From: Myxococcota bacterium
GTDB taxonomy: Bacteria > Myxococcota > JAJVIH01
DNA: 45,878 nucleotides
Assembly: GCA_022072125.1 (NCBI GenBank)
Contig: JAJVIH010000065.1
Span: 1 to 45,878 of the forward strand
Reading direction: 5' to 3'
How positions within the stretch are numbered: the stretch's first letter is position 1; each line of letters starts with the position of its first letter. The notes below the pieces were generated by a model. It saw only the letters and a list, made by a program, of their open reading frames with translations, ran no database searches and was not told the origin of the DNA. Position numbers and translations under genes: made by a program. Positions 4,224 through 30,277 of this stretch are shown here, piece by piece.

Positions 4224-4580
4224 ATGGCGCCCACCCGCATTGAATACGACAACTCTTCCAGCGGACTGGAAGGCATGTTCACCCAACTGCTGCCCAAGCT
4301 GCTGCAGCGCATCGAGTTTGACGCGGTGGACCTGCATGCGGGTCAGGCGGGCAAACAGGCCACCCTGTGGCTGCGCAGCCAGGGCAAGACCGTCTACCAC
4401 ATCCGGGTCGTCCGCCGCGGCGTGCGCACCGTGCTGGAACTGGGGCATATCAGCCCGGCGGCGGGACTGGAACTGGCGAGAATCTGCAAAACCCATTTCG
4501 ATAGCTGGTTTGGAATCACCCGTGAAGACATCCTGGCTTACGAAGACCATCACCAACCACCCAATGGAGGGAAGCCATGA
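4224..4580 (+). CDS. Small conserved-looking protein of unknown function
   Basis: I do not recognise this 118-residue protein. It has no signal peptide or membrane segment. Its middle has alternating strand-like stretches (ATLWLRSQGKTVYHIRVVRRG) and a C-terminal half with helical, acidic character, so a small soluble alpha/beta fold is likely. It begins 20 bases after the NusG paralogue and its stop overlaps the start of the WbpA gene by four bases (ATGA), so it is translationally coupled to the first sugar-nucleotide enzyme. Another frame over the same bases is open (4240-4602), but it does not form the ATGA junction and runs into wbpA. Sitting between regulator and pathway, it could be a partner of either; no function is assigned. 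Confidence 0.65.
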   Translation: MAPTRIEYDNSSSGLEGMFTQLLPKLLQRIEFDAVDLHAGQAGKQATLWLRSQGKTVYHIRVVRRGVRTVLELGHISPAAGLELARICKTHFDSWFGITREDILAYEDHHQPPNGGKP

Positions 4581-5890
4581 GCGAAGTCCAGCAGTTTGTT
4601 GACAAGGTGAAGAACAAGGAGGCCCTGATCGGCATCATCGGTCTGGGGTATGTCGGATTGCCGCTGGCGCTGCGGTTTTCCGAGGTCGGCTTCAAGGTGC
4701 TGGGGTTCGATCTGGACGGATCGAAAATCCAGAAGATTCACTCCGGCCAGAGCTACATCAAGCATATTGACTCGTCGAAGATCGCCGGCGCGGTTCAGCG
4801 CGGGTTCACCGCCACCACCGATTTCAGCCGCGCGAAGGAGCCGGACGCCATCCTGATTTGCGTGCCTACGCCGTTGACCCATCACCGCGAACCGGACATG
4901 TCGTACATCGTCAATACGGCCAACCAGATCGCCAGATACATCCGCAAGGGCCAGCTTGTGGTGCTGGAATCCACCACCTACCCGGGCACCACGGTGGAAA
5001 TATTGATCCCGATTCTGGAAAAGGCGACCGGGCTGAAGTGCGGAACCGATTTCTGGGCGGCGTTTTCGCCGGAGCGCGAGGATCCCAACAATCCCGATTA
5101 CCATACCGCGACCATTCCCAAGGTGGTGGGCGGGGTGAATCCCGACGCCCTGGCCGCCGCCAAGACGCTCTATGATCAGGTCATCGTCAAGACCGTGCCG
5201 GTGTCCAACACCCAGACCGCGGAAGCGGCCAAACTGGTGGAAAACATTTTCCGCTGCATCAACATCGCCATGGTCAACGAACTGAAAATGGTCTTCGACC
5301 GCATGGGCATTGACATCTGGGAGGTGATTGACGCCGCCAAGACAAAACCCTTCGGTTTCATGGCGTTTTACCCCGGCCCCGGCCTGGGCGGTCACTGCAT
5401 TCCCATTGACCCGTTCTACCTGACCTGGAAAGCCCGGGAATTCGGCATCTCCACCCGCTTCATCGAACTGGCGGGCGAGATCAACACCGCCATGCCGGAA
5501 TATGTCGTCCAGCGCACCATGGACGCCCTGAACGACCGCGAGAAATCGCTGAAGGGAAGCAAGGTGCTGATCGTGGGCCTGGCCTACAAGCGCGACATTG
5601 ACGACATGCGCGAGAGCCCCTCGCTGATCCTGATCGATCTGTACGAGAAGAAGGGCGCCAAAGTGGATTACTACGACCCCTATATCCCCGTGGTCCCGCC
5701 GACCCGCGAACATGCCCACCTGGCGGGCCGGGTTTCCGCCAAGCTGGAGGATGTCAAGAACTACGATGTCGTGGTCATCAGCACGGACCACAGCAACGTG
5801 GACTACAACTATGTCCTCAAGAACGCCAAACTGGTGGTGGACACCCGCAACGCCATCAAGGAAGGCGCTCCCAACAAGATCAAGGCCTGA
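4577..5890 (+). CDS. wbpA: UDP-N-acetyl-D-glucosamine 6-dehydrogenase (WbpA type)
   Basis: This 437-residue enzyme of the UDP-glucose/GDP-mannose dehydrogenase family oxidises C6 of a UDP-HexNAc to the uronic acid with two NAD+. A Rossmann motif GLGYVG lies at 22-27, and the thiohemiacetal Cys is C274 in GPGLGGHCIPIDPFYL. A C-terminal UDP-binding domain contains GLAYKRDIDDMRESPS. The gene is coupled to the upstream small gene by an ATGA overlap. It is assigned as WbpA rather than UDP-glucose dehydrogenase because WbpB-, WbpD/E- and WbpI-type genes close the same cluster; WecC (UDP-ManNAc dehydrogenase) remains an alternative because a second 2-epimerase is also present. It would catalyse the first committed step to UDP-ManNAc3NAcA in the cytoplasm. 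Confidence 0.88.
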   Translation: MSEVQQFVDKVKNKEALIGIIGLGYVGLPLALRFSEVGFKVLGFDLDGSKIQKIHSGQSYIKHIDSSKIAGAVQRGFTATTDFSRAKEPDAILICVPTPLTHHREPDMSYIVNTANQIARYIRKGQLVVLESTTYPGTTVEILIPILEKATGLKCGTDFWAAFSPEREDPNNPDYHTATIPKVVGGVNPDALAAAKTLYDQVIVKTVPVSNTQTAEAAKLVENIFRCINIAMVNELKMVFDRMGIDIWEVIDAAKTKPFGFMAFYPGPGLGGHCIPIDPFYLTWKAREFGISTRFIELAGEINTAMPEYVVQRTMDALNDREKSLKGSKVLIVGLAYKRDIDDMRESPSLILIDLYEKKGAKVDYYDPYIPVVPPTREHAHLAGRVSAKLEDVKNYDVVVISTDHSNVDYNYVLKNAKLVVDTRNAIKEGAPNKIKA

Positions 5891-5933: not shown

Positions 5934-6113
5934 CCATGACGCATGGAATCCGCCAGCCCGAGTCCAACGCCCAGCCGCGGGTTGATGTCCCGCATCACCT
6001 CCGGGACCTTTCACTACGGTCTCGCCCGTGTGATGCCGCAGGCCGTCGGCTTTCTGCTGATCCCGCTTTACGCGGCGCTGCTCACCCCTCACGACTACGG
6101 CCTGGTGGATATG
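5934..6113 (+). repeat. Direct repeat copy 1, start of first flippase gene
   Basis: These 180 bases match 7516-7695 with only 8 mismatches by hand alignment (172/180) and no gaps. The repeat begins 9 bases before the start codon and ends abruptly after the codons for GLVDM. It is in the same frame in both genes, at a constant offset of 1582 bases. Confidence 0.9.
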
Positions 6114-7439
6114 TACAACCTGCTGTTCGTGGTTCTGGCGATTGTCTCGCGGCTCGGCCTTGGCGGGTCGGTCGCGCGCTTCTATTTCGATTTCAAGGAA
6201 GGTCCGGAACTCAGGAACTATCTGTCCACCATGGGCTGGTGCATGGCCGCCAACAGTCTGCTGGTTGCGGCGGTGTTGCTCGCCACGGCCCCGCTGTGGC
6301 TGGACGCCCTGATTCCCGGGTTTCCCTATTTCCCGTTTTTCGTCATGGCGGTGCTGGTTTCCGTGATCAATACCGGACCAGAGATCCAAAACTGGCTGCT
6401 GCAATCCCGGGAGCAGAGCGCCCTGTCCGCAAAGCTGAATGGCTCCTTCGCAGCCGCCGGAATCGTGCTGGCCTTGTTTTTCGTGGCGGGCTTGCGATGG
6501 GGAGCGTTTGGGATGGCGTTCGCCCAATTCCTGGCCGCGCTGCTGTTTTCCATTCAGTCCATCCATTACCTGCGCCAGGATTTCTCGGGCGGCTTCAAAC
6601 GGGAATATGTCAAAAACTCGCTTGTCTTCGCGGGCGCCCAACTCCCCGCCCATTTGCTCGCGGCGTTTTCCCCCATGATGAACCGGAGCATTCTGGCGCA
6701 TTCCGGCTCCCTGGAGTCCGTCGGCCTGATCGCCCTCGCCAACCGCTTTTCTCAGCCCGTGGTGCTGGCGGCGGATTCCCTGGCCATGGCCTACCCGCCG
6801 ATTTATTACCGGGTTCGCACCGAAAACCAACCCGGGGATACCCGCCAGTTGGTGACCGCGGAGCGCACCATCTGGTTTTTGACGGTTTCCGCGGCCGCTT
6901 TTGTCGCCATGGCCGGTCCCCCGGCCCTGCGGGTGTTGACGCCTTCCGCCTATCACGAAGCCGCCGCGGTGATTCCGGTTCTGGTTCTGGTTCCGGTGAT
7001 GAACGTGGTGTTCACGCTGTTTGGTTCGGAACTCTACTTCAGCAAGAAAACCTGGATCCTCACCGCCGCCCAGACGGTCTGTATCCTGGTGAACTCGGGG
7101 ATTACCTGGGCGCTGGTTGGGTTCATGGGCCCCCTGGCCGCGGCCACGGGCATGGCGGCGGGTCAGGCGGTATTCGCCATCATTACCGCCGCCGCCGCCT
7201 ATCAATTCGCCCAGGTGGAGCACGACTGGTTCTCGATATGGAGAACTTCGCTGGTCATGGCGGGGGTGTCTTGCATACCGCTTGTCTTGCCGCCCCTGCC
7301 CGATTTGTTGAGCATCCCGCTCTGGACAATGCTCCTCGCGGGAGCGATTGGGGGCCTTCACCTGTTGGGAGATCCCACGCCCGGTTTGCTTTTTCGTCGG
7401 GCCGCCCGGTCAACTGGCTTCCTGCGCGGTGCGCCATGA
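5943..7439 (+). CDS. Polysaccharide flippase, copy 1 (Wzx, MOP superfamily)
   Basis: This 498-residue integral membrane protein probably flips undecaprenyl-linked repeat units across the inner membrane. It has a hydrophilic N-terminal tail, then about 12-14 hydrophobic helices. The opening helix pattern GLARVMPQAVGFLLIPLYAA and the following TPHDYGLVDM are typical of MOP-family polysaccharide flippases. The start at 5943 matches the paralogue's start; the internal ATG at 5985 (MSRITSG) is a possible alternative and neither has a clear Shine-Dalgarno. It is paralogous over its whole length to the next gene, from which it is separated by 85 bases. Its first 57 codons are almost identical to the paralogue while the rest has diverged. 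Two flippases in one locus may handle two lipid-linked units or be partly redundant. Confidence 0.85.
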   Translation: MESASPSPTPSRGLMSRITSGTFHYGLARVMPQAVGFLLIPLYAALLTPHDYGLVDMYNLLFVVLAIVSRLGLGGSVARFYFDFKEGPELRNYLSTMGWCMAANSLLVAAVLLATAPLWLDALIPGFPYFPFFVMAVLVSVINTGPEIQNWLLQSREQSALSAKLNGSFAAAGIVLALFFVAGLRWGAFGMAFAQFLAALLFSIQSIHYLRQDFSGGFKREYVKNSLVFAGAQLPAHLLAAFSPMMNRSILAHSGSLESVGLIALANRFSQPVVLAADSLAMAYPPIYYRVRTENQPGDTRQLVTAERTIWFLTVSAAAFVAMAGPPALRVLTPSAYHEAAAVIPVLVLVPVMNVVFTLFGSELYFSKKTWILTAAQTVCILVNSGITWALVGFMGPLAAATGMAAGQAVFAIITAAAAYQFAQVEHDWFSIWRTSLVMAGVSCIPLVLPPLPDLLSIPLWTMLLAGAIGGLHLLGDPTPGLLFRRAARSTGFLRGAP

Positions 7440-7515
7440 GGCCGCCGCCGGCCTCTTCCTCTCTTGCGTTGTCAGCAATCAGGAAAACCATCGGACTTGT
7501 CCTGTGTCCGTTCCG

Positions 7516-7695
7516 CCATGACGCATGGAATCCACCAGCCCGAGTCCAGCGCCCAGCCGCGGGTTGATGTCCCGCATCACCTCCGGGACCTTTCACTACG
7601 GTCTTGGCCGCGTGTTGCCGCAGGCCATCGGCTTTCTGCTGATCCCGCTTTACGCGGCGCTGCTCACCCCCCACGACTACGGCCTGGTGGATATG
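7516..7695 (+). repeat. Direct repeat copy 2, start of second flippase gene
   Basis: This is the partner of 5934-6113, with 172 of 180 bases identical. Elsewhere the two flippase genes are far less alike: 42 of 60 bases agree between 6661-6720 and 8243-8302. The sharp edge suggests recent gene conversion or duplication of the 5' end. Recombination between the copies would remove 1582 bases and leave one in-frame hybrid flippase. Confidence 0.9.
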
Positions 7696-9012
7696 CATGC
7701 GCAATGCGGCGGCGTGCTTGTCCTGCTGATGCGTTTCAGCCTCGGCGGCTCGATTTCCAGGTTTTATTACGATTACAAGGAAGGCCGGGAACTCCAGAAC
7801 TATGTGGCGACCATCGGCGGATTCATGGTCATCAACAGTTTGCTGGTTGGGGGGATCGTCCTGATCAGCGCCCCTTTCTGGCTTCACCGGATTCTTCCCG
7901 GGTTTGGGTATTTTCCCTACTTTGTACTGGCGGTGCTGGCTTCCATATTGTCCGTGGGATCGGAAATCCAGCGCCGGCTCATGCAGGCCCGGGAACAGAC
8001 GGCGATGACCGCCAAACTCAACCTGATCACGGCTCTGGCGGGAATCGCCCTGGCGCTGTTTTTTGTCGCCGGGTTGCGCTGGGGCGCCTTTGGAATGGTC
8101 TTCGCCCAATTCCTGGCAGGGCTGGTGTTTTATATCCAGGCCATCGCCTATCTGAAGCATGACGCCCGGGGATCGTTCGAGAAAGATCGCTTGAAAGGCT
8201 CCTTGGCCTATGCGGCAGGATTGTTTCCCTCACATGCCATCGCCGCGTTTCTTCCCGTGGCGAACCGCGCCATACTGGCCCAGACAGGGGCCCTGGAATC
8301 CGTCGGTTTGGTGGCCCTCGCCAACCGCTTCGTGCAGCCGGTTGTCATCGCATCCGAATCATTCGCTTCCGCCTACCCGCCCATCTATTTCGCCGTTCGC
8401 AAACAGGGCGGCGCCGCGGAACTGGACCAGTTGCGTTCCGTGGAACGCCTGATCTGGTACGTCACCATGGCGGCCGCCGCTGGCGCCGCCATGTTTGCTC
8501 CACCGCTGATCCGGTTGTTGACCCCGGAAACCTACCACTCCAGTGCGCCGCTCGCCCCAATCCTGGTCGCGGTTCCGGTGCTCAGCATGATGTACACGCT
8601 GTTTGGAATGGAGTTGTTCTACAGCAAAAAAACCTGGGTCCTGCCCCTGATTGCAGCATGCGGCGCGGCGGCGAATTGGGGAAGCACCTGGCTGCTCTGC
8701 CAGCGTTATGGGGCCGCGGGCGCCGCCTGGGGAATGGTCGCTGGACAATCCGTATTCAGTCTCCTGGCGGTGGCCGCGGCTTCACGGCTTACGGTGGTTT
8801 CACATGACTGGACGGCCATTCTCAGAACATTGGCGGTCTGGAGCGCCGCAATCGCGGCCGGCCTGGCGCAACCGGTCCAAAATGACTGGCTTGCGATACT
8901 GGTCAGGTCAGGCATCTTCATTGGCGCCGTGGTTCTGCTGCATTTGTCCGGCGATGATACGGCTTCACGCCTGATTCAGCGGATCAACGGCAGGGTGTTT
9001 TCCCGGAAGTAG
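7525..9012 (+). CDS. Polysaccharide flippase, copy 2 (Wzx, MOP superfamily)
   Basis: This 495-residue membrane protein is a tandem paralogue of the preceding flippase, collinear with it and of nearly equal length. It has the same N-terminal tail and first helix, then about 12-14 hydrophobic helices. Shared landmarks include the LGGS(V/I)(A/S)RF(Y)F/Y segment after the third helix, the ALFFVAGLRWGAFGM helix and the Y/FFSKKTW(I/V)L turn. It would move a lipid-linked oligosaccharide to the periplasmic face for polymerisation. The next gene starts one base after its stop region, so they are co-expressed. Whether the two copies differ in substrate cannot be read from the sequence, but their central regions have diverged enough to allow it. 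Confidence 0.85.
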   Translation: MESTSPSPAPSRGLMSRITSGTFHYGLGRVLPQAIGFLLIPLYAALLTPHDYGLVDMHAQCGGVLVLLMRFSLGGSISRFYYDYKEGRELQNYVATIGGFMVINSLLVGGIVLISAPFWLHRILPGFGYFPYFVLAVLASILSVGSEIQRRLMQAREQTAMTAKLNLITALAGIALALFFVAGLRWGAFGMVFAQFLAGLVFYIQAIAYLKHDARGSFEKDRLKGSLAYAAGLFPSHAIAAFLPVANRAILAQTGALESVGLVALANRFVQPVVIASESFASAYPPIYFAVRKQGGAAELDQLRSVERLIWYVTMAAAAGAAMFAPPLIRLLTPETYHSSAPLAPILVAVPVLSMMYTLFGMELFYSKKTWVLPLIAACGAAANWGSTWLLCQRYGAAGAAWGMVAGQSVFSLLAVAAASRLTVVSHDWTAILRTLAVWSAAIAAGLAQPVQNDWLAILVRSGIFIGAVVLLHLSGDDTASRLIQRINGRVFSRK

Positions 9013-12947: not shown

Positions 12948-13919
12948 ATGATCGCCAATACACCCGTGGCTTTGGTGACTGGCGGAGCCGGGGCAATCGG
13001 CTCCCGTTTATGCGCGCGTCTGATAACGGATGGTTTTCAGGTGATAGCGCTGGATGACCTCTCCTCCGGCTACCTGGAAAACCTCCCGCCGAGTGCGGAA
13101 TTCGTATCGGGCTCCATCTGTGAGGCTGATCTGCTGAACAGGCTTTTTGAGCAGTACCGGTTCACCCATGTATTTCACCTCGCGGCCCTGTTCGCCAACC
13201 AGAACTCGGTGGATCATCCGGAGCGCGATCTGGATGTGAACGGCCTTGGAACCATGCGCATCGGGCTGGAGGCCTGCCGCCCGGATTCTCTCAAACGGCT
13301 CAGGCGCCTTGTTTATACCTCCTCCTCGTGCGTATATGGGAACTGCGCTGGAAAGGTCAGTGAAACGGCGGCCTTTGATTTGGATACCCCATACGCCATC
13401 ACCAAGCTGCTGGGCGAACATTATTTCCGGTATTTCTCCCGGCAGTATGGCGTTCCGGTCTCCATTGTGCGCCTGTTCAATTCGTATGGTCCCGGCGAAA
13501 GGCCCGGCAAATACCGGAATGTCATTCCCAATTTTATCTGGAAAGCCCTGAACAACGAACCGCTCACCATCACGGGCACAGGCGAGGAAACCCGTGATTT
13601 CACCTATATCGAGGATGTGGTGGACGGCATCGTGCTGGCGGCGACATCGGATAACGCCGCTGGAGAAACCTTCAACCTGGCCACTGGCCAGGAGACTCCC
13701 GTGGGAGAACTCGCCCGGATGATCGTCGAGATGACAGGATCCAAAAGCGAAATCCGCCATGTGCCGCGAAGATCATGGGATCATGTTCTTCGCCGCTGCG
13801 GGGATATATCCAGAGCACGGGAACGGCTGGGTTATGATCCCAAAACCACGCTGCCAGAGGGGCTGCGTCCCGCCATTGAGTGGATCCGGCGGCTTCCTCC
13901 TTCCTCCATCCGTCTCTGA
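12948..13919 (+). CDS. NAD-dependent sugar epimerase/dehydratase (extended SDR)
   Basis: This 323-residue extended short-chain dehydrogenase acts on a nucleotide sugar. It shows the NAD-binding GGAGAIGS near the N-terminus, a DDLSSG loop after the second strand as in GalE/WbpP proteins, HLAA, the catalytic Ser-Tyr-Lys arrangement (YTSSSCVYG and YAITK), and the substrate-side RLFNSYGPGERP and TRDFTYIEDVVDG. AAGGA precedes the ATG closely. The UDP-glucose/UDP-GlcNAc 4-epimerase subgroup is the best guess; a 4,6-dehydratase is less likely because the SYYxK/TDE pattern of dehydratases is absent. It would supply a C4-epimeric sugar for one of the transferases. Three bases separate it from the 2-epimerase gene. 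Confidence 0.85.
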   Translation: MIANTPVALVTGGAGAIGSRLCARLITDGFQVIALDDLSSGYLENLPPSAEFVSGSICEADLLNRLFEQYRFTHVFHLAALFANQNSVDHPERDLDVNGLGTMRIGLEACRPDSLKRLRRLVYTSSSCVYGNCAGKVSETAAFDLDTPYAITKLLGEHYFRYFSRQYGVPVSIVRLFNSYGPGERPGKYRNVIPNFIWKALNNEPLTITGTGEETRDFTYIEDVVDGIVLAATSDNAAGETFNLATGQETPVGELARMIVEMTGSKSEIRHVPRRSWDHVLRRCGDISRARERLGYDPKTTLPEGLRPAIEWIRRLPPSSIRL

Positions 13920-13922
13920 ACC

Positions 13923-15011
13923 ATGAAAGAACTGCTGCTCGTCGCCGGGGCGCGCCCCAATTTCATCAAGGTGGCCCCCGTATGCCACGCCCTGGCCGGC
14001 CATCCGCGGCTCGGCTTCACCCTGGTCCATACGGGACAACATTACGACGACGCCATGTCGCGCCGTTTCTTCGAGGTGCTGGACATTCCCGCCCCTGGCG
14101 TCAATCTCGAAGTGGGATCGGGCAGCCATGCGGTCCAGACCGCCCGCATCATGGAGCGCTTCGAACCGGTGGTGGCGGAGCGCAAACCCGCCGCGGTCGT
14201 CGTCTTCGGAGATGTCAACTCCACCGCCGCATGCGCGCTGGTCGCTTGCAAGCTCAACACGCCGGTGGTGCATGTGGAAGCGGGGCTGCGCAGCTTTGAT
14301 CGCACCATGCCCGAGGAGATCAACCGCATCGTCACCGATGTGTTGAGCAGCCTGTTGCTGGTCAGCGAACCCTCGGGACTGCGCAACCTGCTGAACGAGG
14401 GAATCTCCCGGGACAAGATCGTGGAAGTTGGCAATGTCATGATTGACTCGCTTCAGCGGGTGCGTCCCCGGGTGGAAGCCCAGCAGCCATGGACTACCTT
14501 TGGATTGAGCCGGGGCGGATATGGACTTGTCACCCTGCACCGTCCCGCCAACGTGGATGACGACACCGTGCTGAAGGCGCTGCTTGGCGCGCTGGGGAGA
14601 GTCTCGGAAAAACTTCCGCTGATCTTCCCCATGCATCCGCGCACCCGCGCGCGCATCCAGCAACTGGGATGGAATCCTCCCGCCGGCTTCCAGATGGTCG
14701 AGCCGGTGTCCTATATTGACAGCATCGGACTGCAACTGGGCGCGCGGGTGGTGCTGACCGATTCCGGCGGACTTCAGGAAGAGTCTTCCTGCCTGGGAAC
14801 GCCATGCCTGACGCTGCGCCCCAACACCGAACGGCCCGTCACCGTCGAGTTGGGCAGCAACATCATTCTGGGCAATGATCCCGCCGCCGTGGAATCCGCG
14901 GTCCATGAAGTGATCGCGGGCAGGATCAAGCGCGCCCAACCGATTCCGTTGTGGGATGGCCGCGCCGCCGAAAGGGTGGTGGCCGCGATGGACGCCTTCC
15001 TGCACCCCTGA
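13923..15011 (+). CDS. wecB: UDP-GlcNAc 2-epimerase, non-hydrolysing (WecB type)
   Basis: This 362-residue GT-B-like epimerase interconverts UDP-GlcNAc and UDP-ManNAc. The family's key residues are present: GARPNFIK at 9-16, Asp97 in FGDVNST, Glu119 in HVEAGLRSF, Glu131/132 in MPEEINR and His206 in LHRPAN. The DSGGLQEE segment near residue 284 binds UDP. It is assigned to WecB rather than WbpI because a second paralogue at 29183-30277 sits beside the WbpD/E fusion. The UDP-ManNAc it makes could be a donor for one of the glycosyltransferases or, less likely, a substrate of the dehydrogenase at 4577-5890. The next gene begins two bases after its stop. Confidence 0.85.
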   Translation: MKELLLVAGARPNFIKVAPVCHALAGHPRLGFTLVHTGQHYDDAMSRRFFEVLDIPAPGVNLEVGSGSHAVQTARIMERFEPVVAERKPAAVVVFGDVNSTAACALVACKLNTPVVHVEAGLRSFDRTMPEEINRIVTDVLSSLLLVSEPSGLRNLLNEGISRDKIVEVGNVMIDSLQRVRPRVEAQQPWTTFGLSRGGYGLVTLHRPANVDDDTVLKALLGALGRVSEKLPLIFPMHPRTRARIQQLGWNPPAGFQMVEPVSYIDSIGLQLGARVVLTDSGGLQEESSCLGTPCLTLRPNTERPVTVELGSNIILGNDPAAVESAVHEVIAGRIKRAQPIPLWDGRAAERVVAAMDAFLHP

Positions 15012-15013
15012 TC

Positions 15014-16702
15014 GTGATCCCCAACACCGCCGACATCTCCGTGCTCATCCCCGCCGCGGGCAGGGTCCCCGAAGGCGTGCTCGCGCTCGCCAATGTGGGC
15101 AGTCCGGCCATGATCCCCGTGGCGGGCCGCCCGGTCATCCACTGGACCCTGTCCTATCTCCGCAAGCTGGGGCTCTCGCGCTTTCATATCGCGGTTCCGC
15201 GCCGCGGCATGTTCGTGGAAGACTATGTGGACTCCGCTTTCGGGGGCGATTGCGAGGTGTCCTTCATGTCGCCCGATCGCGATGGCGGCGTGGGGCTGAC
15301 CCTGTGGAGCCTGGCCCGCGAGGCGTCCAGCAAATCCGTGCTGGTGGTGTTGGGGGACACCCATTTCCAGTTCAAGGATCCGGCGGTCATCCAGTGGGAC
15401 AGGCCGTTCGTGCTGACCCACCCGGTGGAGGAATCCTATCGCTGGTGTCTGGCCCAGACGGCCCCGTCGGGGGAGATCGTCCGTCTGATTGATAAACAGC
15501 CGGAAGCCGCGCCGCCCCGCGAGGCGCTGATTGGCGTATACTGGTTTCCCGAAAGGCAGGCGCTGGTCAACGCCTGCGAGGAATGTTTCGCCAGCGCGGA
15601 ACCCGGGCAACGGGTCGAGTTGTCCGCGATTTTGCAGCGCGTGATGAAGGACAGCCCGATCATGCGCGTGGAAGCGGGCGCCTGGCTGGACTGCGGCAAC
15701 CCCGATCGCCAGGCCAAGTCCCATCAGGCGTTGCTGCAGAAGCGGGCCTTCAACGAACTCACCATTGATCCGGTGTTTGGGACCATCACCAAGCGCAGCC
15801 AGCATGTGGATAAATTCCTCGACGAGATCAATTACCTGCGCCTGCTTCCGCCGGAAATCGCCGTGCTGTTTCCACGGGTGCTCCATTATTCGTTGAACTG
15901 GGAAAACCCCTCTCTCACCATGGAGTATTACGGATATCCCACGCTCGCCGATTTGTTCATCTTTGAAAATGTGGACGCGGGCATTTGGGAAAGCATTTTC
16001 CTGCATCTGCGCGACATCATCACCGGCGGTTTCATGCGTTTCGAGCGTCCGGTTCCGCTCGACGCGGTGAAGGAAATGTACCTGGGCAAGACCCGCAAGC
16101 GGCTGGCCGGCACGCGCTTCATGCCGGAATACGCCGATCTCCTCGCCCAGGCGGACGAACTGACCATCAACGGCCGGAAACTGCGCAATCTGCGGGCCCT
16201 CTGGCCGGATCTGGAGCGGCGCGTGGAGGAACTCGCCTCCGCCTGCCGCGGGGCGGTGATTCACGGGGATTTGTGCTTCTCGAATATCCTGTACGACCTG
16301 CGTTCCCGCATCTGCAAGCTGGTGGACGCGCGCGGCAGCTTCGGCAACTCGGGGATTCATGGCGACCCGCGCTACGATGTCGCCAAGCTGTTTCATTCGG
16401 CGCGCGGTAAATATGAGTTTATTGTCAACGATCTCTTCCGCATCGGCCGGCAAGGCGATGAACTTTCGTTGGAAATCCGCTCCCGCCCCCTGCATGACGA
16501 AATCGAGCGGCGATTCGAGCGGGTGTTCTTCCCCCGCTTCGACCGCGCGGACATCACCCTGATCACGGGATTGTTGTTCGCCAGCATGCCGGCCCTGCAC
16601 TACGACCACCCGCGCCGGCAGGTGGCGATGTTTCTTCAGGCGGTGTTGCTGCTCAACGAAGCGCTGGACTTGGCGCCTCCGGCAGGGGGTGCGGCGGCAT
16701 GA
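15014..16702 (+). CDS. Fusion of an atypical nucleotidyltransferase domain and a kinase-like phosphotransferase domain
   Basis: This 562-residue two-domain protein uses a GTG start two bases after the previous stop. Residues ~8-245 follow the sugar-phosphate nucleotidyltransferase fold, with PAAGR at 13-17, GDTHF at 114-118 and WLDCGNPDRQAKS at 224-236. The signature loop is altered: the glycine-rich GxGTR is replaced and the usual Pro-Lys is SPAMIPV, with Ala for Lys at 32. Residues ~270-562 resemble aminoglycoside/choline-kinase-type phosphotransferases, with HGDLCFSN at 417-424, a metal-binding Asp at 438 in VDARGSFG, and GDPRYDVAKLFHS at 450-462. It is coupled by ATGA to a normal nucleotidyltransferase gene. 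Likely it phosphorylates and activates an unusual substituent of the polymer; the substrate is unknown. Confidence 0.8.
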   Translation: MIPNTADISVLIPAAGRVPEGVLALANVGSPAMIPVAGRPVIHWTLSYLRKLGLSRFHIAVPRRGMFVEDYVDSAFGGDCEVSFMSPDRDGGVGLTLWSLAREASSKSVLVVLGDTHFQFKDPAVIQWDRPFVLTHPVEESYRWCLAQTAPSGEIVRLIDKQPEAAPPREALIGVYWFPERQALVNACEECFASAEPGQRVELSAILQRVMKDSPIMRVEAGAWLDCGNPDRQAKSHQALLQKRAFNELTIDPVFGTITKRSQHVDKFLDEINYLRLLPPEIAVLFPRVLHYSLNWENPSLTMEYYGYPTLADLFIFENVDAGIWESIFLHLRDIITGGFMRFERPVPLDAVKEMYLGKTRKRLAGTRFMPEYADLLAQADELTINGRKLRNLRALWPDLERRVEELASACRGAVIHGDLCFSNILYDLRSRICKLVDARGSFGNSGIHGDPRYDVAKLFHSARGKYEFIVNDLFRIGRQGDELSLEIRSRPLHDEIERRFERVFFPRFDRADITLITGLLFASMPALHYDHPRRQVAMFLQAVLLLNEALDLAPPAGGAAA

Positions 16703-17436
16703 AACTGGTGATTCCCATGGCGGGACGCGGTTCCCGCTTCGCCGGCCGCGGGGTGACCACGCCCAAGCCCCTGATCGAGGCCAGGGGCAGGCGTCTGTTC
16801 CAGTGGGCGCTGAAAACCTTTGACGGCATGTCCTTCTCCAGCGTGGTGTTTATCGCGCTCCGCGAACATGAAGATGCTTTCGGGGTGACGGAGATCATCC
16901 GCCAGTCCTGCCCCTGGCCTGCGTCCACGGTGCTGATTGACGGCGTGACCGAGGGTCAGCTCTGCACGGTGCTGGCGGCGCGCGAACACCTGGAGTCCGC
17001 GGACGAGGAACTGATTGTGTTCAACGCCGACAGCTACGTGGAGGGAGGGACCGCCTCCGATCTGGCGGCGCGCGCGGCGGAGGTTCACGGCCTGATTTCC
17101 GTGGTGAATCTTCCCGGCGACCGCTGGAGTTTCGCCCGCGCCAACGCGGACGGCGACGTGGTGGAGGTGGCGGAGAAGCGGCGCATTTCCGATCATTGCA
17201 GCACGGGCTTGTACCACTTCGCGTCCGCCAGGGAGTTCCTGTGGGCCGCCGATCAGGTGATCTCCCGCAATCTCCGGACGAACAACGAATTTTATGTCAT
17301 CCCGGTCTACGGCATGTACCTCGAACGGGGTTGGCGCATCCGGCTCTCGCACGCCCGCCGCATGTGGGATCTGGGAACCCCTGAGTCGCTCGCGGAGTTC
17401 GAGCGGAATTTTGTCCAGCCGGAGGGCCAGCAATGA
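16699..17436 (+). CDS. Nucleotidyltransferase (sugar-phosphate or phospho-substituent activation)
   Basis: This 245-residue single-domain nucleotidyltransferase has an intact active-site loop. MAGRGSRF (7-14) and TTPKPLIEA (20-28) carry the Gly/Arg and Lys that the preceding fusion lacks. A metal-site NAD follows in VFNADSY, and the C-terminal WDLGTPESLAEF is typical of the family. At 245 residues it is compact, like the CTP-using or small RmlA/HddC-like members. It overlaps the fusion by ATGA and the next glycosyltransferase by ATGA, so the three are made together. It probably transfers a nucleotide to a phosphorylated intermediate made by the fusion protein's kinase; the base and the acceptor cannot be told from sequence. 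Confidence 0.82.
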   Translation: MKLVIPMAGRGSRFAGRGVTTPKPLIEARGRRLFQWALKTFDGMSFSSVVFIALREHEDAFGVTEIIRQSCPWPASTVLIDGVTEGQLCTVLAAREHLESADEELIVFNADSYVEGGTASDLAARAAEVHGLISVVNLPGDRWSFARANADGDVVEVAEKRRISDHCSTGLYHFASAREFLWAADQVISRNLRTNNEFYVIPVYGMYLERGWRIRLSHARRMWDLGTPESLAEFERNFVQPEGQQ

Positions 17437-18536
17437 GCGCGTTCCATCCGTCGTTTTCCATCTGTATCCCCAATTTCAACTACGCCCGGTATATTGGGGA
17501 GACCATTCAGAGCGCATTGAACCAGACCTGGGACAACTTCGAGATCGTGATTTGCGACAACGCCTCGACGGACAAGTCCATGGAGGTGATCCGGTCATTC
17601 CAGGATCCGCGCATCCGGGTGTTCGAGAATCCGCGCAACATCGGTTTCGCGGCGAATGTGCAGCGGGTCGCCTCCGAGGCGAGGAATGATTTCATGATCA
17701 TGCTGTCGTCGGACGATCTGATGCGCGGGGACGCGCTGGCCGAGTACGCCGCCATCCTCCGGGAGCAGGGCGAGGAACGCGCCCACAAGACCGTCTGCTG
17801 CTCGGCGGTGGAGCGGATTGATGAAGAGGGCAGGCCCAAACAGATAGACATGATCAAATCCGGCCAGATCGTCATATCGCCCGCTTCGCTTGAGACCGGG
17901 TATCGCCTGCTTGCTGAAAATCCCGCCAACCAGAAATTCAGCGGACACGATGTTCTGCGCGCCATGGTGCTGGAATGGCGGACCACCTGCGGTTTTCTAG
18001 CCACCATGTACCCGCGCAGGCTGTTTCAACAAGTTGGCGGCTACGACATGACCACGTGGATATGGCCCGACATGCTGTTTCTGGATCGTATTCTCGCCTT
18101 CAATCCCGATGTGTTTTATGTCCCCAAACCGTTGTTTCAATACCGTGAACACCGTTCCGGCCAGAATGCGCAGGCGATGGGGGCCGGGGCTCTCAAGGCG
18201 GAGACGGATGGTTATATGCGCACCGTCAATTTTGACGGCAAGGTGTTGCAGGAACTGGGAGTGACCCGGGACCAAATGATCAAGGGCTACCTGAATACGG
18301 TCATTCTGGCAGGCGGTATTGTTGTCGCGCTGGAAGCGGGCGCCTGGCTCCGGGCCCTGAGGATCTGGCTGTTCGCTGCTTCGCTTTACCCCAACCACTG
18401 GTTGTCTGATCCGCGCGCCATCGCCATCGGAGCATTGTTGACCAGCGGTCCCGCCGCGACCCCCCTGGAAAAATCCTTGAGGCAGTTGGCGCGCAGAATC
18501 AATATTCTGCACCATATCAGGGGATTTCGTACTTGA
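17433..18536 (+). CDS. Glycosyltransferase family 2
   Basis: This 367-residue protein begins with a GT-A domain: SICIPNFNYARYIGETIQSALNQ, then the Asp-containing VICDNASTD and the metal-binding SSDD at 92-95 (the DXD equivalent). WPDMLFLDRILAF lies in the acceptor part, followed by the closing YREHRSGQN that is common in polysaccharide GT2 enzymes. The C-terminal ~110 residues have one or two weakly hydrophobic stretches that may anchor it to the membrane. It is an inverting transferase that adds one sugar to the lipid-linked repeat. ATGA overlaps the previous stop and its own stop overlaps the TTG start of the next transferase. Confidence 0.88.
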   Translation: MSAFHPSFSICIPNFNYARYIGETIQSALNQTWDNFEIVICDNASTDKSMEVIRSFQDPRIRVFENPRNIGFAANVQRVASEARNDFMIMLSSDDLMRGDALAEYAAILREQGEERAHKTVCCSAVERIDEEGRPKQIDMIKSGQIVISPASLETGYRLLAENPANQKFSGHDVLRAMVLEWRTTCGFLATMYPRRLFQQVGGYDMTTWIWPDMLFLDRILAFNPDVFYVPKPLFQYREHRSGQNAQAMGAGALKAETDGYMRTVNFDGKVLQELGVTRDQMIKGYLNTVILAGGIVVALEAGAWLRALRIWLFAASLYPNHWLSDPRAIAIGALLTSGPAATPLEKSLRQLARRINILHHIRGFRT

Positions 18537-22565: not shown

Positions 22566-22578
22566 CACCGGACCGGTG
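22566..22578 (+). repeat. 13-base palindrome before the amidotransferase gene
   Basis: CACCGG-A-CCGGTG is a perfect palindrome with a single central base, 12 bases upstream of the ATG at 22591, where the ribosome would bind. It resembles the odd-length palindrome at 3627-3643 in layout but not in sequence. Confidence 0.35.
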
Positions 22579-22590
22579 GTTGAAGAACTG

Positions 22591-24468
22591 ATGTGTGGAA
22601 TTACCGGTATTGTACGCTCCGCGGGTGGACAGGTTTCCGCGGAAACGCTGAAAGCCATGACCGATGTCATCGCGCACCGCGGACCGGATGATTCGGGGCT
22701 GGCCTGGTTCAGAAGCGATGGCGGGGCCGTGGGCGGGGATGGAGACTGGAGCGTCGCCCTGGGGCACCGGCGGCTGTCCATTCTCGATTTGAGCCCGGCC
22801 GGCCATCAGCCGATGACCCGCGACGGGAAGGTCTGGATCACCTACAACGGCGAAGTGTACAACTTCGTGGAATTGCGCGGCGAACTGGAAAAAGCAGGCC
22901 ACGAATTCAAGTCACAATCCGATACCGAGGTGATCCTGGCGGCGTATGCGCAGTGGGGAACTTCCTGCTTCCGGCGATTCCGCGGCATGTGGGGGATGAT
23001 GATCGCGGACTTCCACAAACGGAAGGTCATTCTCTGCCGTGACCGGATTGGCATCAAGCCGCTTTATTACTGGAAATATCAGGGCTCCGTATTTGTCGCG
23101 TCCGAAATCAAACAGTTCTCCAAAATCCCGGCCTTCCGGGCCAGGGTCAATCCGCAGGCCGCCGCGGAATATCTGGGTCAGGGATATGAAAACCCTGTTC
23201 GATCGCTGTTCGATACGGTGGAAACCGTTCCCGGCGGTTGCTGGATCGAGATGGATGTGGCCGCCCCATCCCCCCGCATCAGCGCGCCCCAATCCTATTG
23301 GGAGCCGGAGCGTGTAAGCGTCTCGGTTACGGATGCAAACGAAGCCTCCCGGCTGTTTCTCGACAAATTCCGTGAGTCCGTGGCCCTGCACCTGCGCAGC
23401 GATGTTCCGGTTGGATGCGCGCTTTCGGGAGGACTTGATTCCAGTTCCATCGCCGCGCTGGTTCACGAATTGAACGGACCCCAGGGGGCCCTCCATTGTT
23501 TCAGCACGATATATCCCGGCGACAAGGCTGACGAGCGGGAGTTCATTGACGCCGCGTTGAGCGGAATCCGGGCGGAGCCGCATATGGTCAGCCCGCGTCC
23601 CGGGGAGTTCCTTCGGGATCTCGATCTGCTGTTATGGCACCAGGACGAACCGATTGGCTCCGCATCCATCTACAACGGCTTCAGGCTTTCCAGAATGACG
23701 CGCGAGGCGGGCGTGCCCGTGACCCTGAATGGGCAGGGCGGCGATGAAATTCTTGGGGGATACTATCAGTCGTTTCTCATGTATCTCCGCGCGGCCATCC
23801 GCCGCAAACAACTGATTCCATTGCTGGAACATTCGGCCGGAGCCCTGTTGCCGGGCGGGAATCCGGATTTGCTCCGGGAGTTGCCGCGCTTCGCCCGGCG
23901 ATTCAAACACCGGAAACGCAAGAGCAACCTGATCCGGGTCAAGAATCATGAGCGGGGATCCGGGGTTTCCGGGATGTTTGAACAGGCGCTTTCAGCGGAT
24001 GAACAAAACCGCCGGGTGTTTGATATCCGGGCCATGTACCTTCCCCGTCTTCTGAAGTGGGACGACCGGAACTCCATGGCGTTTTCGGTGGAGGGGCGCT
24101 ATCCGCTGCTCGATCACGAACTGATCGAACTGTGTTTGAGCTTTTCGCCCCGGGTCTTATATCATCGCGGCTGGACCAAATGGCCGCTCCGTCTGGGCAT
24201 GGGCCGGCTGTTAACTGAAAAAGTGTTGTGGAGAAGGGACAAACTGGGTTGGGGCGTCCCCCAGCAACGCTGGCTGCAACAGGAGTTCCGTCCCACGCTG
24301 GAAAGCTGGCTCAATTCCGATTCACCGCTGTGGAGTCTGGTTGAACCCAATGATGTCCGGTCCGTGGCGAACGGAGCATGGAGTCGTCGCAATAACACGG
24401 AGCATGGCGAAATCCTGTTCCGGTTATTCATGTTTGACCGGTGGATGCGGGTTTTTCACATAAACTGA
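22591..24468 (+). CDS. asnB: Glutamine-dependent asparagine-synthase-like amidotransferase
   Basis: This 625-residue protein begins MCGITG, so Cys2 is the glutaminase nucleophile and the ATG at 22591 is the true start. A class II glutamine amidotransferase domain (1-~210) contains HRGPDDSG, LGHRRLSILD and YNGEVYN. The synthetase domain has the ATP pyrophosphatase loop SGGLDSS at 279-285 and GQGGDEILGGY. In surface-polysaccharide clusters such AsnB-like enzymes (for example WbpS in Pseudomonas aeruginosa) convert uronic-acid carboxyls to amides. That suits a locus making a diacetamido-mannuronic acid. Free asparagine synthesis is the alternative. A carbamoyltransferase follows after 44 bases. 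Confidence 0.85.
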   Translation: MCGITGIVRSAGGQVSAETLKAMTDVIAHRGPDDSGLAWFRSDGGAVGGDGDWSVALGHRRLSILDLSPAGHQPMTRDGKVWITYNGEVYNFVELRGELEKAGHEFKSQSDTEVILAAYAQWGTSCFRRFRGMWGMMIADFHKRKVILCRDRIGIKPLYYWKYQGSVFVASEIKQFSKIPAFRARVNPQAAAEYLGQGYENPVRSLFDTVETVPGGCWIEMDVAAPSPRISAPQSYWEPERVSVSVTDANEASRLFLDKFRESVALHLRSDVPVGCALSGGLDSSSIAALVHELNGPQGALHCFSTIYPGDKADEREFIDAALSGIRAEPHMVSPRPGEFLRDLDLLLWHQDEPIGSASIYNGFRLSRMTREAGVPVTLNGQGGDEILGGYYQSFLMYLRAAIRRKQLIPLLEHSAGALLPGGNPDLLRELPRFARRFKHRKRKSNLIRVKNHERGSGVSGMFEQALSADEQNRRVFDIRAMYLPRLLKWDDRNSMAFSVEGRYPLLDHELIELCLSFSPRVLYHRGWTKWPLRLGMGRLLTEKVLWRRDKLGWGVPQQRWLQQEFRPTLESWLNSDSPLWSLVEPNDVRSVANGAWSRRNNTEHGEILFRLFMFDRWMRVFHIN

Positions 24469-24512
24469 ATTGGCGGAAATGCTCCGCCCGGTAAAAAACG
24501 GGAGATGTTGAC

Positions 24513-26240
24513 ATGAATATTCTGGCCATCGCGGATGGTATCGCTTCCATTGTTTACTTCACGGAAGGCAAGGTGAAATACGCCATCCAGGAGGAGAGGC
24601 TGGCCTATGAAAAGAATTACATGGGCCACCCAAGGAGATCGATTGACTGGCTGTTAAACCGGATTTCACCGGGGGAAATCGATCTGATCGCCTACGCGGG
24701 CAAACAGACGTTCAACGACTATGAGAACCGGGATACCTACGTGGCGCGCTACAAACAGGGATTTGAGCGTCACCCCATCCAGATGCTGCGGGGCACATTG
24801 AAGGATGTCTCCGTCATCAACAATCTGCGGGATCAGATCAGGTCGAAAAAAAGGCCCGCCCGTTTGAACCCGCCGCTTCAGGGCAAGCGGACGGTTTCGC
24901 TGGATCACCATCTGTGCCATGCGGCGTCCGCGTATTACTCGTGGGGCGTTCTGAACGAGCCGGTGCTGGTTTTCACCTGCGATGGAGAGGGAGATCGTCT
25001 GTCCGGTTCTGTTTGCGTGGGCGAAGCAGGAAAACTGCGCCGCGTTTCGGAGATCCGGCACAATGCGTCTCTTGGCGCATTCTTCGCCGACATCACCTTT
25101 CTCATGGGGATGATACCCCATGAACATGAGTACAAGGTGATGGGGCTGGCGCCCTACTGCAAGGATGAAAAACGCATCAACGCCCTCAAGGAGAAATTCG
25201 CCAAATGGTTCACCATGGACCCTGATGGGATGAGTTGGCGATATACCGGTCCCCAGCGTTCCGTGCATACCGCGCGCGCGGAACTGGGAGAAATGATCAA
25301 GCTTCAACGTTTCGACATCATCGGCGCCGCGGCCCAGGAGTTTCTGGAGGAGTGGCTTTTGCGCTGGGTGAAGAACGCCATCGCAAAAACCGGCATCCGC
25401 AAGGTTTGCGCCGCGGGCGGAACCTTCATGAATGTTAAGGCCAACCAGAAGATCGCGGAGCTTCCCGAGGTGGATGCCTGTTTTATCATGCCCTCTTCCG
25501 GCGATGAGACCCTGGCTTTCGGCGCCGCCTACCTGGCGGCCGCGGAAAACGGGAATCCGCTGGACATCCAGCCGCTGGGCTCACTCTATCTTGGCGATGA
25601 CATCGCCGACTACGACGTGGAACACGCGGTCGGAAATTACCGCTTCCAGAATGAAGTCGAGGTCAAACGGTGCGAACACATCAACCGGGAGGTCGCCGCC
25701 ATTCTCGCCCGGGGCGGAATTTGCGGGCGGGTCAACGGGCGCATGGAGTTTGGCGCGCGCGCTCTGGGCAACCGTTCCATCCTCGCCTGTCCCAACAGCT
25801 ACCAGGTGGTCCGTGTGATCAACGACATGGTGAAAAACCGGGATTTCTGGATGCCTTTCGCGCCATCCGTCATGGCGGAGAATGTGGAAGTCTACTTCGA
25901 GAATCCCAAAAAACTGCATGTGCCCTACATGACGTTCACCCTGAACAGCCGTCCGGAAAAACGCTCCAAAATGGAAGCCGCGATTCATCCGCAGGACGCC
26001 ACCGGACGGGTGCAGGCGGTATACAAGGACTGGAATCCCGGATATTACGAGGTGCTCTCGTGCTACAAGGAACTGACGGGCGAATCGCTGATCCTGAACA
26101 CCTCCTATAACCTGCACGGTTTGCCGATTGTGCATACGCCCAAATACGCGATGGATGTGTTCGACCAGTCCGGGTTGCCCAACCTGGCGCTGGGGGACTT
26201 TCTCATCAGCAAGAAGAACATCCGCGTGGAAGGGATTTGA
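24513..26240 (+). CDS. O-carbamoyltransferase (NodU/CmcH/TobZ family)
   Basis: This 575-residue enzyme probably moves a carbamoyl group from carbamoyl phosphate, via a carbamoyl-adenylate, to a sugar hydroxyl. The Kae1-like domain shows the metal-binding DHHLCHAASAYY, TCDGEGD and PSSGDETLAFGAAY. The C-terminal YrdC-like domain shows GRMEFGARALGNRSIL, FWMPFAPSV and LNTSYNLHG. The start has GGGAG nine bases upstream. The very N-terminus reads AIADGIASIVYF where the family normally has a His-Asp-Ala/Ser motif, so one active-site His is absent or displaced. Carbamoylated surface sugars are known from nodulation factors and some polysaccharides; here the target is probably a sugar of the repeat unit. 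Confidence 0.85.
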   Translation: MNILAIADGIASIVYFTEGKVKYAIQEERLAYEKNYMGHPRRSIDWLLNRISPGEIDLIAYAGKQTFNDYENRDTYVARYKQGFERHPIQMLRGTLKDVSVINNLRDQIRSKKRPARLNPPLQGKRTVSLDHHLCHAASAYYSWGVLNEPVLVFTCDGEGDRLSGSVCVGEAGKLRRVSEIRHNASLGAFFADITFLMGMIPHEHEYKVMGLAPYCKDEKRINALKEKFAKWFTMDPDGMSWRYTGPQRSVHTARAELGEMIKLQRFDIIGAAAQEFLEEWLLRWVKNAIAKTGIRKVCAAGGTFMNVKANQKIAELPEVDACFIMPSSGDETLAFGAAYLAAAENGNPLDIQPLGSLYLGDDIADYDVEHAVGNYRFQNEVEVKRCEHINREVAAILARGGICGRVNGRMEFGARALGNRSILACPNSYQVVRVINDMVKNRDFWMPFAPSVMAENVEVYFENPKKLHVPYMTFTLNSRPEKRSKMEAAIHPQDATGRVQAVYKDWNPGYYEVLSCYKELTGESLILNTSYNLHGLPIVHTPKYAMDVFDQSGLPNLALGDFLISKKNIRVEGI

Positions 26241-26276: not shown

Positions 26277-27269
26277 ATGTCATCACCAGTGAAAGTGGCT
26301 GTTTTCGGGTGCGGTTACTGGGGAAAGAACCTCGTCCGCAATATGAAGGAACTCGGCGCCCTGGCCGCCGTGGTGGACCCCTCGGAAGGGGGACGGAAAA
26401 CCGCCGCGGGCATCGCCCCGGATGTTCCGGTTCATGAAACCCCGGACGCGGTCCTCCGCGATCCCTCGATTCAAGGAGTCGTGGTGGCCACGCCCGCCGA
26501 AACCCATATGCCCATGGTGAACGCCGCCGTGGACGCGGGCAAGGACGTGTTGTGCGAGAAGCCGCTGGCCCTCCGGTACGAAGACGCCCGGTTCATGGCC
26601 CGCAACGCGGAGGAAAAAGACCGCATCCTGATGGTCGGGCATATTCTGGAATATCACCCGGCGGTGCTGAAGCTGCAGGAACTGATCCGCGAAGGCGTGC
26701 TGGGCAAGGTGCAGTATATCTATTCCTCCCGCCTGAACCTGGGGAAAATCCGCACGGAAGAAAATATCCTGTGGTCGTTCGCGCCGCACGATATCGCGGT
26801 GATCCTGCGGCTGGTGGGGGCGGCGCCGTTTCAGGTGATCTGCGCGGGCGGCTCTTACCTGCAGCCCAATATCGCCGATGTGACGGTCACCCAGTTGCTG
26901 TTCGACAATGGCGTGGCGGCCCATGTGTTTGTGTCCTGGCTGAATCCTTTCAAGGAGCAGAAGCTGGTGGTGATCGGCTCCCAGCGCATGGTCACCTTTG
27001 ACGATGTCCGCAAGGAGTTGATGCTCCACGATCAGCGCGTGGACTGGAAAGCGGGAGAGCCGGCGCCGGTCAAGGGCGAGGGCAGGCTGATCGAATACGC
27101 CGCCGATGAACCGCTCAAGCGGGAATGCCGCGCGTTTCTGGAGGCCATCGCCACGCGGAAACCGCCCATCACCGACTCGGCCAGCGCGCTGCGCGTGCTC
27201 CGCGTGTTGCAGGCGAGCCAGCGTTCGCTGGTCACGCAGGGCCACCCGGTCATGCTTCCCCTCGACTGA
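26277..27269 (+). CDS. wbpB: UDP-GlcNAcA 3-dehydrogenase (WbpB-type Gfo/Idh/MocA oxidoreductase)
   Basis: This 330-residue NAD-dependent oxidoreductase oxidises C3 of UDP-GlcNAcA to the 3-keto sugar, preparing it for transamination. The Rossmann loop is GCGYWGKNLVRN at 11-22 and the family's catalytic Lys is in EKPL (94-97). GHILEYHPA at 121-129 fits the WbpB subgroup, and FAPHDIAV carries the conserved acid-His pair. GGAG lies five bases before the ATG. It is followed after 29 bases by the fused aminotransferase/acetyltransferase that uses its product. The order wbpB, wbpD/E, wbpI matches the Pseudomonas pathway, with wbpA 20 kb upstream. Confidence 0.88.
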   Translation: MSSPVKVAVFGCGYWGKNLVRNMKELGALAAVVDPSEGGRKTAAGIAPDVPVHETPDAVLRDPSIQGVVVATPAETHMPMVNAAVDAGKDVLCEKPLALRYEDARFMARNAEEKDRILMVGHILEYHPAVLKLQELIREGVLGKVQYIYSSRLNLGKIRTEENILWSFAPHDIAVILRLVGAAPFQVICAGGSYLQPNIADVTVTQLLFDNGVAAHVFVSWLNPFKEQKLVVIGSQRMVTFDDVRKELMLHDQRVDWKAGEPAPVKGEGRLIEYAADEPLKRECRAFLEAIATRKPPITDSASALRVLRVLQASQRSLVTQGHPVMLPLD

Positions 27270-27298
27270 TTTCTTCCAACTCCAACCAGGGTCCATCC

Positions 27299-29167: not shown

Positions 29168-29182
29168 CCGTTTTTTGGGACC

Positions 29183-30277
29183 ATGACTCACGTCGTCTCC
29201 ATCGTTGGCGCCCGGCCGCAGTTCATCAAGGCGGCCGTGGTTTCGCGGGCTCTCGCCGCGGCCGGAGTGCGCGAGACCCTGGTTCATACAGGCCAGCATT
29301 ATGACGCGGCCATGAGCGACGTGTTTTTCCAGGAACTGGGGTTGCCCCCTCCCGCGCATCATTTGGGAGCCGGCGGGTTGGGGCACGGCGCCGCCACCGG
29401 CCGCATGCTGGAAAAAATCGAAGCGGTATTGCTGGAAACCAGGCCTGACTGGGTGCTGGTATACGGCGACACCAATTCGACCATCGCGGGCGCGCTGGCC
29501 GCCGTGAAGCTGCATATTCCGGTCGCTCATGTGGAGGCCGGCATGCGTTCGTTCAACCGGCGCATGCCGGAGGAGATCAACCGCGTGCTCACCGATCACG
29601 CCGCATCGCTGCAACTGCTCACCCATGAGCACCCCCGCAAGTTACTGGCCGATGAGGGGATCACCACGGGCGTTCACACCGTCGGCGACACCATGTACGA
29701 CGCCGCCCTCTTGTTCCGGCCCGCGGCGGAGCGTTCCGGCGCGCGCCGGCGTCTGGGGCTGGAAGACGGCGGATACGCCCTGGCGACGCTCCACCGCGCG
29801 GAGAACACCGATGATCCGGCGCGGCTGCGCGGGATCATCACCGGATTGACGGCGGTGGGGGCCATGATTCCCGTTCTGCTGCCGCTGCATCCGCGCACCC
29901 GCAAGATGCTGGGCGAACTGGGATTGGCCTTTGATCCGCTGCGTGTCCGCGTGATCGATCCCATTGGCTATCTGGACATGCTGGACCTGGAACGCGGGGC
30001 CCGGCTGATTCTGACGGATTCCGGCGGCGTGCAGAAGGAAGCGCTGTTCAACGGCGTTCCCTGCATCACCATGCGCGATGAAACCGAGTGGGTGGAGACC
30101 GTGGAACTCGGATGGAATATCCTGGTCGGCGCGGACGCCGTTCGCATCGAGGCCGCCGCCCGCCGGTTTTTGTCTCACCCGCCAAAGGAAGCGCCGCCGC
30201 CGGTTTACGGCGACGGCCGCGCCGGAGAGAAGATCGCCATGTTGCTCCGCGATCTGGCCGGCAAAGTCCACATCTGA
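29183..30277 (+). CDS. wbpI: UDP-GlcNAc3NAcA 2-epimerase (WbpI type)
   Basis: This 364-residue non-hydrolysing 2-epimerase is paralogous to the enzyme at 13923-15011. Key residues are conserved: GARPQFIKAA at 9-18, Asp96 in YGDTNST, Glu118 in HVEAGMRSFNRR, Glu130/131 in MPEEINRVLTDH, LHRAEN, and DSGGVQKE for UDP binding. RPQFIKA and the RRMPEEINRVLTDH stretch fit the WbpI subgroup better than WecB, and it directly follows the wbpD-wbpE fusion. It would give UDP-ManNAc3NAcA, the last step of the pathway. It is the final gene of the plus-strand operon; 125 bases later yebC ends on the opposite strand. Confidence 0.87.
   Translation: MTHVVSIVGARPQFIKAAVVSRALAAAGVRETLVHTGQHYDAAMSDVFFQELGLPPPAHHLGAGGLGHGAATGRMLEKIEAVLLETRPDWVLVYGDTNSTIAGALAAVKLHIPVAHVEAGMRSFNRRMPEEINRVLTDHAASLQLLTHEHPRKLLADEGITTGVHTVGDTMYDAALLFRPAAERSGARRRLGLEDGGYALATLHRAENTDDPARLRGIITGLTAVGAMIPVLLPLHPRTRKMLGELGLAFDPLRVRVIDPIGYLDMLDLERGARLILTDSGGVQKEALFNGVPCITMRDETEWVETVELGWNILVGADAVRIEAAARRFLSHPPKEAPPPVYGDGRAGEKIAMLLRDLAGKVHI

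Follow-up and report, generated by a model that had tools for sequence, protein, structure and literature searches.

A kinase fused to a degenerate nucleotidyltransferase domain and encoded beside an intact nucleotidyltransferase in a polysaccharide gene cluster of a Myxococcota bacterium

The gene at 15014-16702 of the window (i.e. the whole stretch of 45,878 nucleotides that was analysed, on the forward or + strand of which all its features given here lie) encodes a protein of 562 amino acids, from a GTG start to a stop codon at 16700-16702, in which a nucleotidyltransferase (NTase)-like domain is fused to a kinase-like one; this is the architecture of the KfoE type. As read from the sequence, the residues of the kinase are intact, the NTase-like domain has lost its pyrophosphate loop and kept its metal aspartates, and an intact NTase adjoins. 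This architecture and the partnership with an NTase are well supported, and the neighbour most likely supplies the activity that the fused domain has lost. The reading that we favour, and to which we give a good likelihood as a whole, is that of a sugar kinase carrying a dead NTase domain as scaffold or sensor, with the neighbouring NTase making the nucleotide sugar.

The N-terminal domain (residues ~7-242; 15032-15739) has an NTase (GT-A-like) fold. Searches with NCBIfam and PDB profiles group it with GlmU/RmlA-type nucleotidyltransferases (NCBIfam Arch_glmU, 5e-15), Pfam NTP_transferase matches it under the cut-off (E 4.7e-4), and an AlphaFold2 model made from 37 relatives (pLDDT 93.3, pTM 0.91) finds RmlA enzymes as its best Foldseek matches in the PDB, with 4ecm (RmlA) on top (E 1.4e-12). 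The fold marks PAAG, GDT and WxDxG, which an earlier note on this DNA had listed as PAAGR, GDTHF and WLDCGNPD, are all present. Both metal-binding aspartates of an active NDP-sugar pyrophosphorylase are there as well: Asp115 in the retained GDT motif (15353-15361) and Asp226 in the second metal motif, WLDCGNPD (15683-15706); they are found in 24/24 degenerate and 13/13 intact fusions, i.e. in 37/37, and W-x-D-x-G in 24/24 degenerate ones. What is absent is the GxG(T/S)R-X4-8-PK loop of active enzymes of the RmlA, LicC or HddC type, the published catalytic consensus being GXG(T/S)RX4-8PK (PMC6697681). The site of the lost loop is PAAGRVPEGVLALANVGSPAMIP (15050-15118), and alignment with the intact fusion of the same phylum, L113, where the loop reads PAAG-LGTRMLPTSARIPKAMIP, sets GLGTRMLPTSARIPKAMIP of that relative against GRVPEGVLALANVGSPAMIP of the window. 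The loop Arg is found in none of the 24 degenerate relatives versus all 13 intact fusions, and the loop Lys gives the same counts (0/24 versus 13/13), which confirms the degenerate first active site that had been proposed. The Arg column holds Gly in 5/5 members of the window clade and an acidic residue, Gly or Thr in the KfoE clade; the Lys column of the degenerate relatives holds Pro, Ala or Ser. The suggested replacement of Pro-Lys by Pro-Ala was right as to the loss of Lys and off by one as to the residue, since it is Pro that stands in the Lys column (GSPAMIP against RIPKAMIP in L113). With Arg and Lys absent and the metal aspartates present, the pyrophosphate-handling loop is gone and the metal sites remain.

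The C-terminal domain (residues 243-562; 15740-16699) is an APH/choline-kinase-like kinase by its motifs rather than by its Pfam score, which is 19.8 bits against a gathering cut-off of 23.2 (PF01636, E 7e-4). The catalytic loop HGDxxxxN (HGDLCFSN, residues 417-424; 16262-16285; H417-G-D419 and N424), the second aspartate, Asp438, and the Lys260/Glu271 pair are invariant columns in the family; the motifs are intact, as had been stated. A family signature, D(P/A)RG...GDxRYDxAKLxHS (16325-16399), is conserved whether the kinase stands alone or is fused to an intact or a degenerate NTase, and forms a probable metal/substrate region. A sequence search returned no relative of the kinase half with a solved structure (best E 0.011). 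We discarded Pfam alone as a source for the name of the protein, because both domains are under the cut-off, and also an assignment to the LicCA choline kinase/cytidylyltransferase, because the loop is lost and the polysaccharide cluster holds no recognised choline genes.

The fusion ORF, which has one exact match in the host genome, is tightly packed among its neighbours. Upstream lie an NAD-dependent epimerase/dehydratase (12948-13919; PF01370, 2.3e-58) and, in the same operon, a WecB-type UDP-GlcNAc 2-epimerase (13923-15011; TIGR00236, 2.5e-85, over the cut-off), the stop of which ends at 15011. Downstream, the ATG of the separate NTase (16699-17436; Pfam NTP_transf_3, 5.8e-8) overlaps the stop codon of the fusion at 16699; its loop, GRGSRF...PK, is intact (GRGSRFAGRGVTTPK, 16723-16767), SRF and PK being invariant in the alignment. 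A single-sequence AlphaFold model of this NTase was poor (pLDDT 40) and was left out of the analysis. The start of a family 2 glycosyltransferase (17433-18536; PF00535, 1.3e-25) overlaps in turn the stop of the NTase. The whole is a surface-polysaccharide cluster, with flippases, glycosyltransferases, a Wzy/ligase, sugar epimerases and a dehydrogenase, and an aminotransferase. A UDP-sugar dehydrogenase, a Gfo/Idh oxidoreductase, a fused hexapeptide acetyltransferase/aminotransferase and a second WecB-type epimerase (4577-5890 and 26277-30277) look like a diacetamido-mannuronic acid pathway; elsewhere in the cluster there are two flippase-like ORFs (Polysacc_synt) in tandem (5943-9012) and an asparagine synthase-like protein followed by a carbamoyltransferase (22576-26240).

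Relatives of the kinase come in three forms: stand-alone, fused to an intact NTase and fused to a degenerate one. The survey of gene context that the earlier note had called for, limited for the association test to loci with at least 2.5 kb of flank on each side, found a separate, motif-intact NTase beside all of the degenerate fusions (20/20) and beside none of the intact ones (0/16); the Fisher p of 1.4e-10 ignores kinship, the kinase tree offering only 1-2 independent contrasts. One intact locus, L048, was scored as lacking a separate NTase: an unrelated protein of 598 aa, encoded at a distance of 1.9 kb, has a part that resembles an NTase, and this was discounted. Two further loci behaved as predicted: in Enterococcus phage 9183 the fusion is intact and has no separate NTase, and in Variovorax (L122) it is degenerate and has one. 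L113, a fusion with no separate NTase beside it, had been considered as an exception, but having an intact loop it fits the pattern. Three roles had been offered for the domain (sensor, partner for the normal nucleotidyltransferase, enzyme with a new substrate), and the association makes the partner the best supported. Against the reading that we favour, no separate NTase is encoded near the kinase at 6/25 stand-alone loci.

The tree of NTase domains bears on the origin of the dead domain. A branch supported at 99 splits the fused domains, intact and dead, from all separate NTases; the window clade is joined by intact L113, from its own phylum (support 88), and the KfoE clade is distinct from it, so that two separate losses of the loop are possible. 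Judged by this tree, the dead domain descends from a fused NTase and not from the neighbouring NTase, which rules out a duplicate of the latter.

One named member of the family belongs to the capsule locus of E. coli K4 (L111), recognised by its 686-aa polymerase, which matches the structure of K4 chondroitin synthase, 2z86. The delta-kfoE primers (PMC7429809) match, at 50/50 nt on both sides, the sequences that directly flank L111:10001-11569. This ORF is a degenerate fusion, and by its sequence KfoE is thus a kinase with a dead NTase. A small HAD phosphatase lies upstream of it and an intact NTase downstream. Deletion of kfoE gives unfructosylated chondroitin (PMC7925653, PMC7429809), and it is from genetics that KfoE is called a 'fructosyltransferase' (PMC7925653). 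Since KfoE is needed for the fructose of the capsule, the probable task of the gene family is to provide surface polysaccharides with activated sugars. The earlier note knew of no characterised protein of such design; KfoE, characterised by genetics, is one, and ORF53_52c of phage RB69 is an intact relative. Nor is the new chemistry on the polymer that it expected indicated, the family having the look of a supplier of activated sugars, not of a polymer modifier. We give even chances to a joint proposal for the KfoE group, namely that it is misnamed, that the kinase yields fructose 2-phosphate, that the NTase turns this into nucleotide-activated fructofuranose and that the actual transfer of fructose is done by a DUF7796-like or WavE protein. 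Fructose 2-phosphate could be formed from free fructose, or else by way of fructose 2,6-bisphosphate, on which the HAD phosphatase would then act. Searches of the open-access literature for nucleotide-activated fructose gave nothing relevant.

DUF7796-like proteins include a 477-aa ORF of K4 (L111:8146-9579), relatives of which are encoded at plasmid, O92-type and Variovorax loci and at many viral ones. Either such a protein or a WavE protein co-occurs with the kinase/HAD/NTase set, and the DUF7796-like protein is a candidate fructosyltransferase; kinship between the two families was considered and dropped, no relation being detectable. These candidate transferases accompany most relatives, and the window contains none. 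It likewise contains no small HAD phosphatase adjacent to the fusion, a feature of the KfoE type; in a close relative (L004) a HAD lies 13 nt downstream. The only HAD relative in the host genome, a weak one, is on another contig (G000:C18:24431-24748, L117/L119; 38% identity to the module phosphatase) and could act in trans. As DUF7796-like, WavE and HAD genes are all absent from the window, the sugar made here is uncertain: fructose, the first candidate, has in our estimate slightly less than an even chance, and otherwise it would be another sugar, possibly a furanose. Among solved structures, PDB 1xpj ('hypothetical protein'), which we take to be Vibrio cholerae VC0232, is the K4-type HAD (E 5e-49).

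The set of HAD, degenerate fusion and NTase is found at other E. coli loci. One is L106, in ST69 O15:H18 strains, which we infer to be the K52 locus; K52 is the commonest CC69 capsule (PMC13171598) and contains fructose, according to a title cited in PMC5566550. Others are the O78, O92 and O20/O137 antigen clusters. Fructofuranose is also a constituent of the capsules of P. multocida types B/E and C. jejuni HS:1. In the O78 O-antigen cluster the three genes lie between wzy and wzx (L107:10001-12728). The published O78 polysaccharide is not known to contain sugars other than mannose and GlcNAc and would need no extra one; the module predicts that the antigen has a missed, possibly acid-labile residue, and an acid-labile fructofuranose could have been lost during preparation. 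The fusion gene of an O92 strain is split into several annotated pieces (L104:12372-13911), and the module may be off there.

The pathway that we propose would run as follows. The kinase would phosphorylate a sugar, or a sugar phosphate, on its anomeric carbon; the small HAD phosphatase, where present, would take off the other phosphate; the neighbouring NTase (16699-17436) would make the nucleotide sugar, and a separate glycosyltransferase would transfer the sugar onto the polysaccharide. The dead domain would be the decayed NTase half of an enzyme that once had both activities; it would have been retained as a scaffold or product sensor and probably contacts the neighbouring NTase, by analogy with inactive GMPPA and GMPPB.

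Other readings of the dead domain have to be weighed. It could be a changed GT-A fold that transfers the sugar, i.e. a true fructosyltransferase in which the aspartates bind metal and the NDP-sugar donor. The loss of fructose upon kfoE deletion fits this, and aspartates kept in 24/24 together with a lost pyrophosphate loop are what a donor-binding GT-A domain needs. But the same kinase, HAD and NTase set exists at stand-alone kinase loci, where no NTase-like fused domain is present; K4 and many relatives have a separate DUF7796-like protein, and others WavE, as an alternative transferase; and a plain transferase would not explain why the kinase half is fully conserved. We therefore consider this reading unlikely. 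A functionless remnant, passively carried along with the kinase, would agree with descent from an active fused NTase and with the stand-alone kinases, which manage without the domain. Against it, constraint within the window clade is as strong on this domain as on the kinase (identity between window and L003 of 57.8% and 55.0%, respectively, with dN/dS <1 in both), and the domain is thus not simply decaying; the metal aspartates, Trp144 and WxDxG are near-invariant across very large distances, and the AlphaFold2 model is confident throughout. We regard such a remnant as very unlikely. Finally, the domain might still work as an NTase, either because its loop residues are displaced or because it uses another catalytic mechanism, as its overall fold and metal aspartates would allow. 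The displacement, which the earlier note had proposed to check by alignment, is not what is seen with L113 and the 24 degenerate relatives: neither in the loop nor close to it is there a conserved Arg or Lys, Arg17 occurs in 3/5 members of the window clade only, and the Arg column of that clade is uniformly Gly. This makes an active enzyme highly improbable.

Intact fusions of phages bear on the substrate of the kinase. Phage RB69 arabinosylates its own DNA, and ORF53_52c has been proposed to help make UDP-arabinose (PMC6024577). In the RB69-homologous region of Proteus phage phiP4-3 a SIS isomerase, an intact-loop fusion (kinase profile 3e-30) and a HAD (1e-18) follow one another, an order that fits a sugar phosphate as the kinase substrate. 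The isomerase would give arabinose 5-phosphate, the kinase would add the anomeric phosphate, the HAD would remove the 5-phosphate and the NTase would activate the product; by the same logic fructose 6-phosphate would lead to fructose 2-phosphate and then to NDP-fructose. The HAD of the RB69-like phage type is PDB 9iqw ('Capsule biosynthesis protein', E 1.5e-48). In Enterococcus phage 9183 (L121) the HAD and the intact fusion have a glycosyltransferase-like gene as neighbour and are surrounded by genes for thymidylate kinase, thymidylate synthase and DNA polymerase, a setting that suggests sugar modification of the phage DNA.

If these proposals are right, an APH-type kinase forms, with a small HAD phosphatase and an NTase, a portable module that provides activated and possibly furanose sugars in capsules, O antigens and phages; the module marks unnoticed acid-labile fructose in other antigens, that of E. 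coli O78 included; and kfoE, named but biochemically unexplained, becomes a testable pathway. The window would also show, in a bacterium, an NTase half that is dead and yet under constraint, its activity having moved to the neighbouring gene.

Of the known systems that come near, K4 KfoE agrees in design: like the window protein, it joins a degenerate NTase to a kinase and has an adjacent intact NTase. However, its kinase is of a different clade, so that fructose is not secured for the window; a HAD and a DUF7796-like protein are adjacent, and its dead domain is only 16% identical to that of the window. RB69 ORF53_52c is also an NTase and kinase fusion, and a HAD adjoins the fusion in its homologue L124, but in the RB69 type the NTase loop is intact, a SIS isomerase adjoins, and phage DNA modification is served, not a polysaccharide. 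FKP is a bifunctional fucokinase/GDP-fucose pyrophosphorylase (PMC11982464). It resembles the window protein in having kinase and NTase in a single chain, and it makes an activated sugar; unlike in the window protein, both of its sites are active. The kinase of FKP has the GHMP fold, and Treponema LicCA carries kinase and NTase in one chain, both active, and makes an activated alcohol. Pairs of a catalytically dead and an active NTase are represented by GMPPA/GMPPB and by the large and small subunits of ADP-glucose pyrophosphorylase. In these the dead partner is an unfused paralogue of the active one, whereas that of the window descends from a fused domain.
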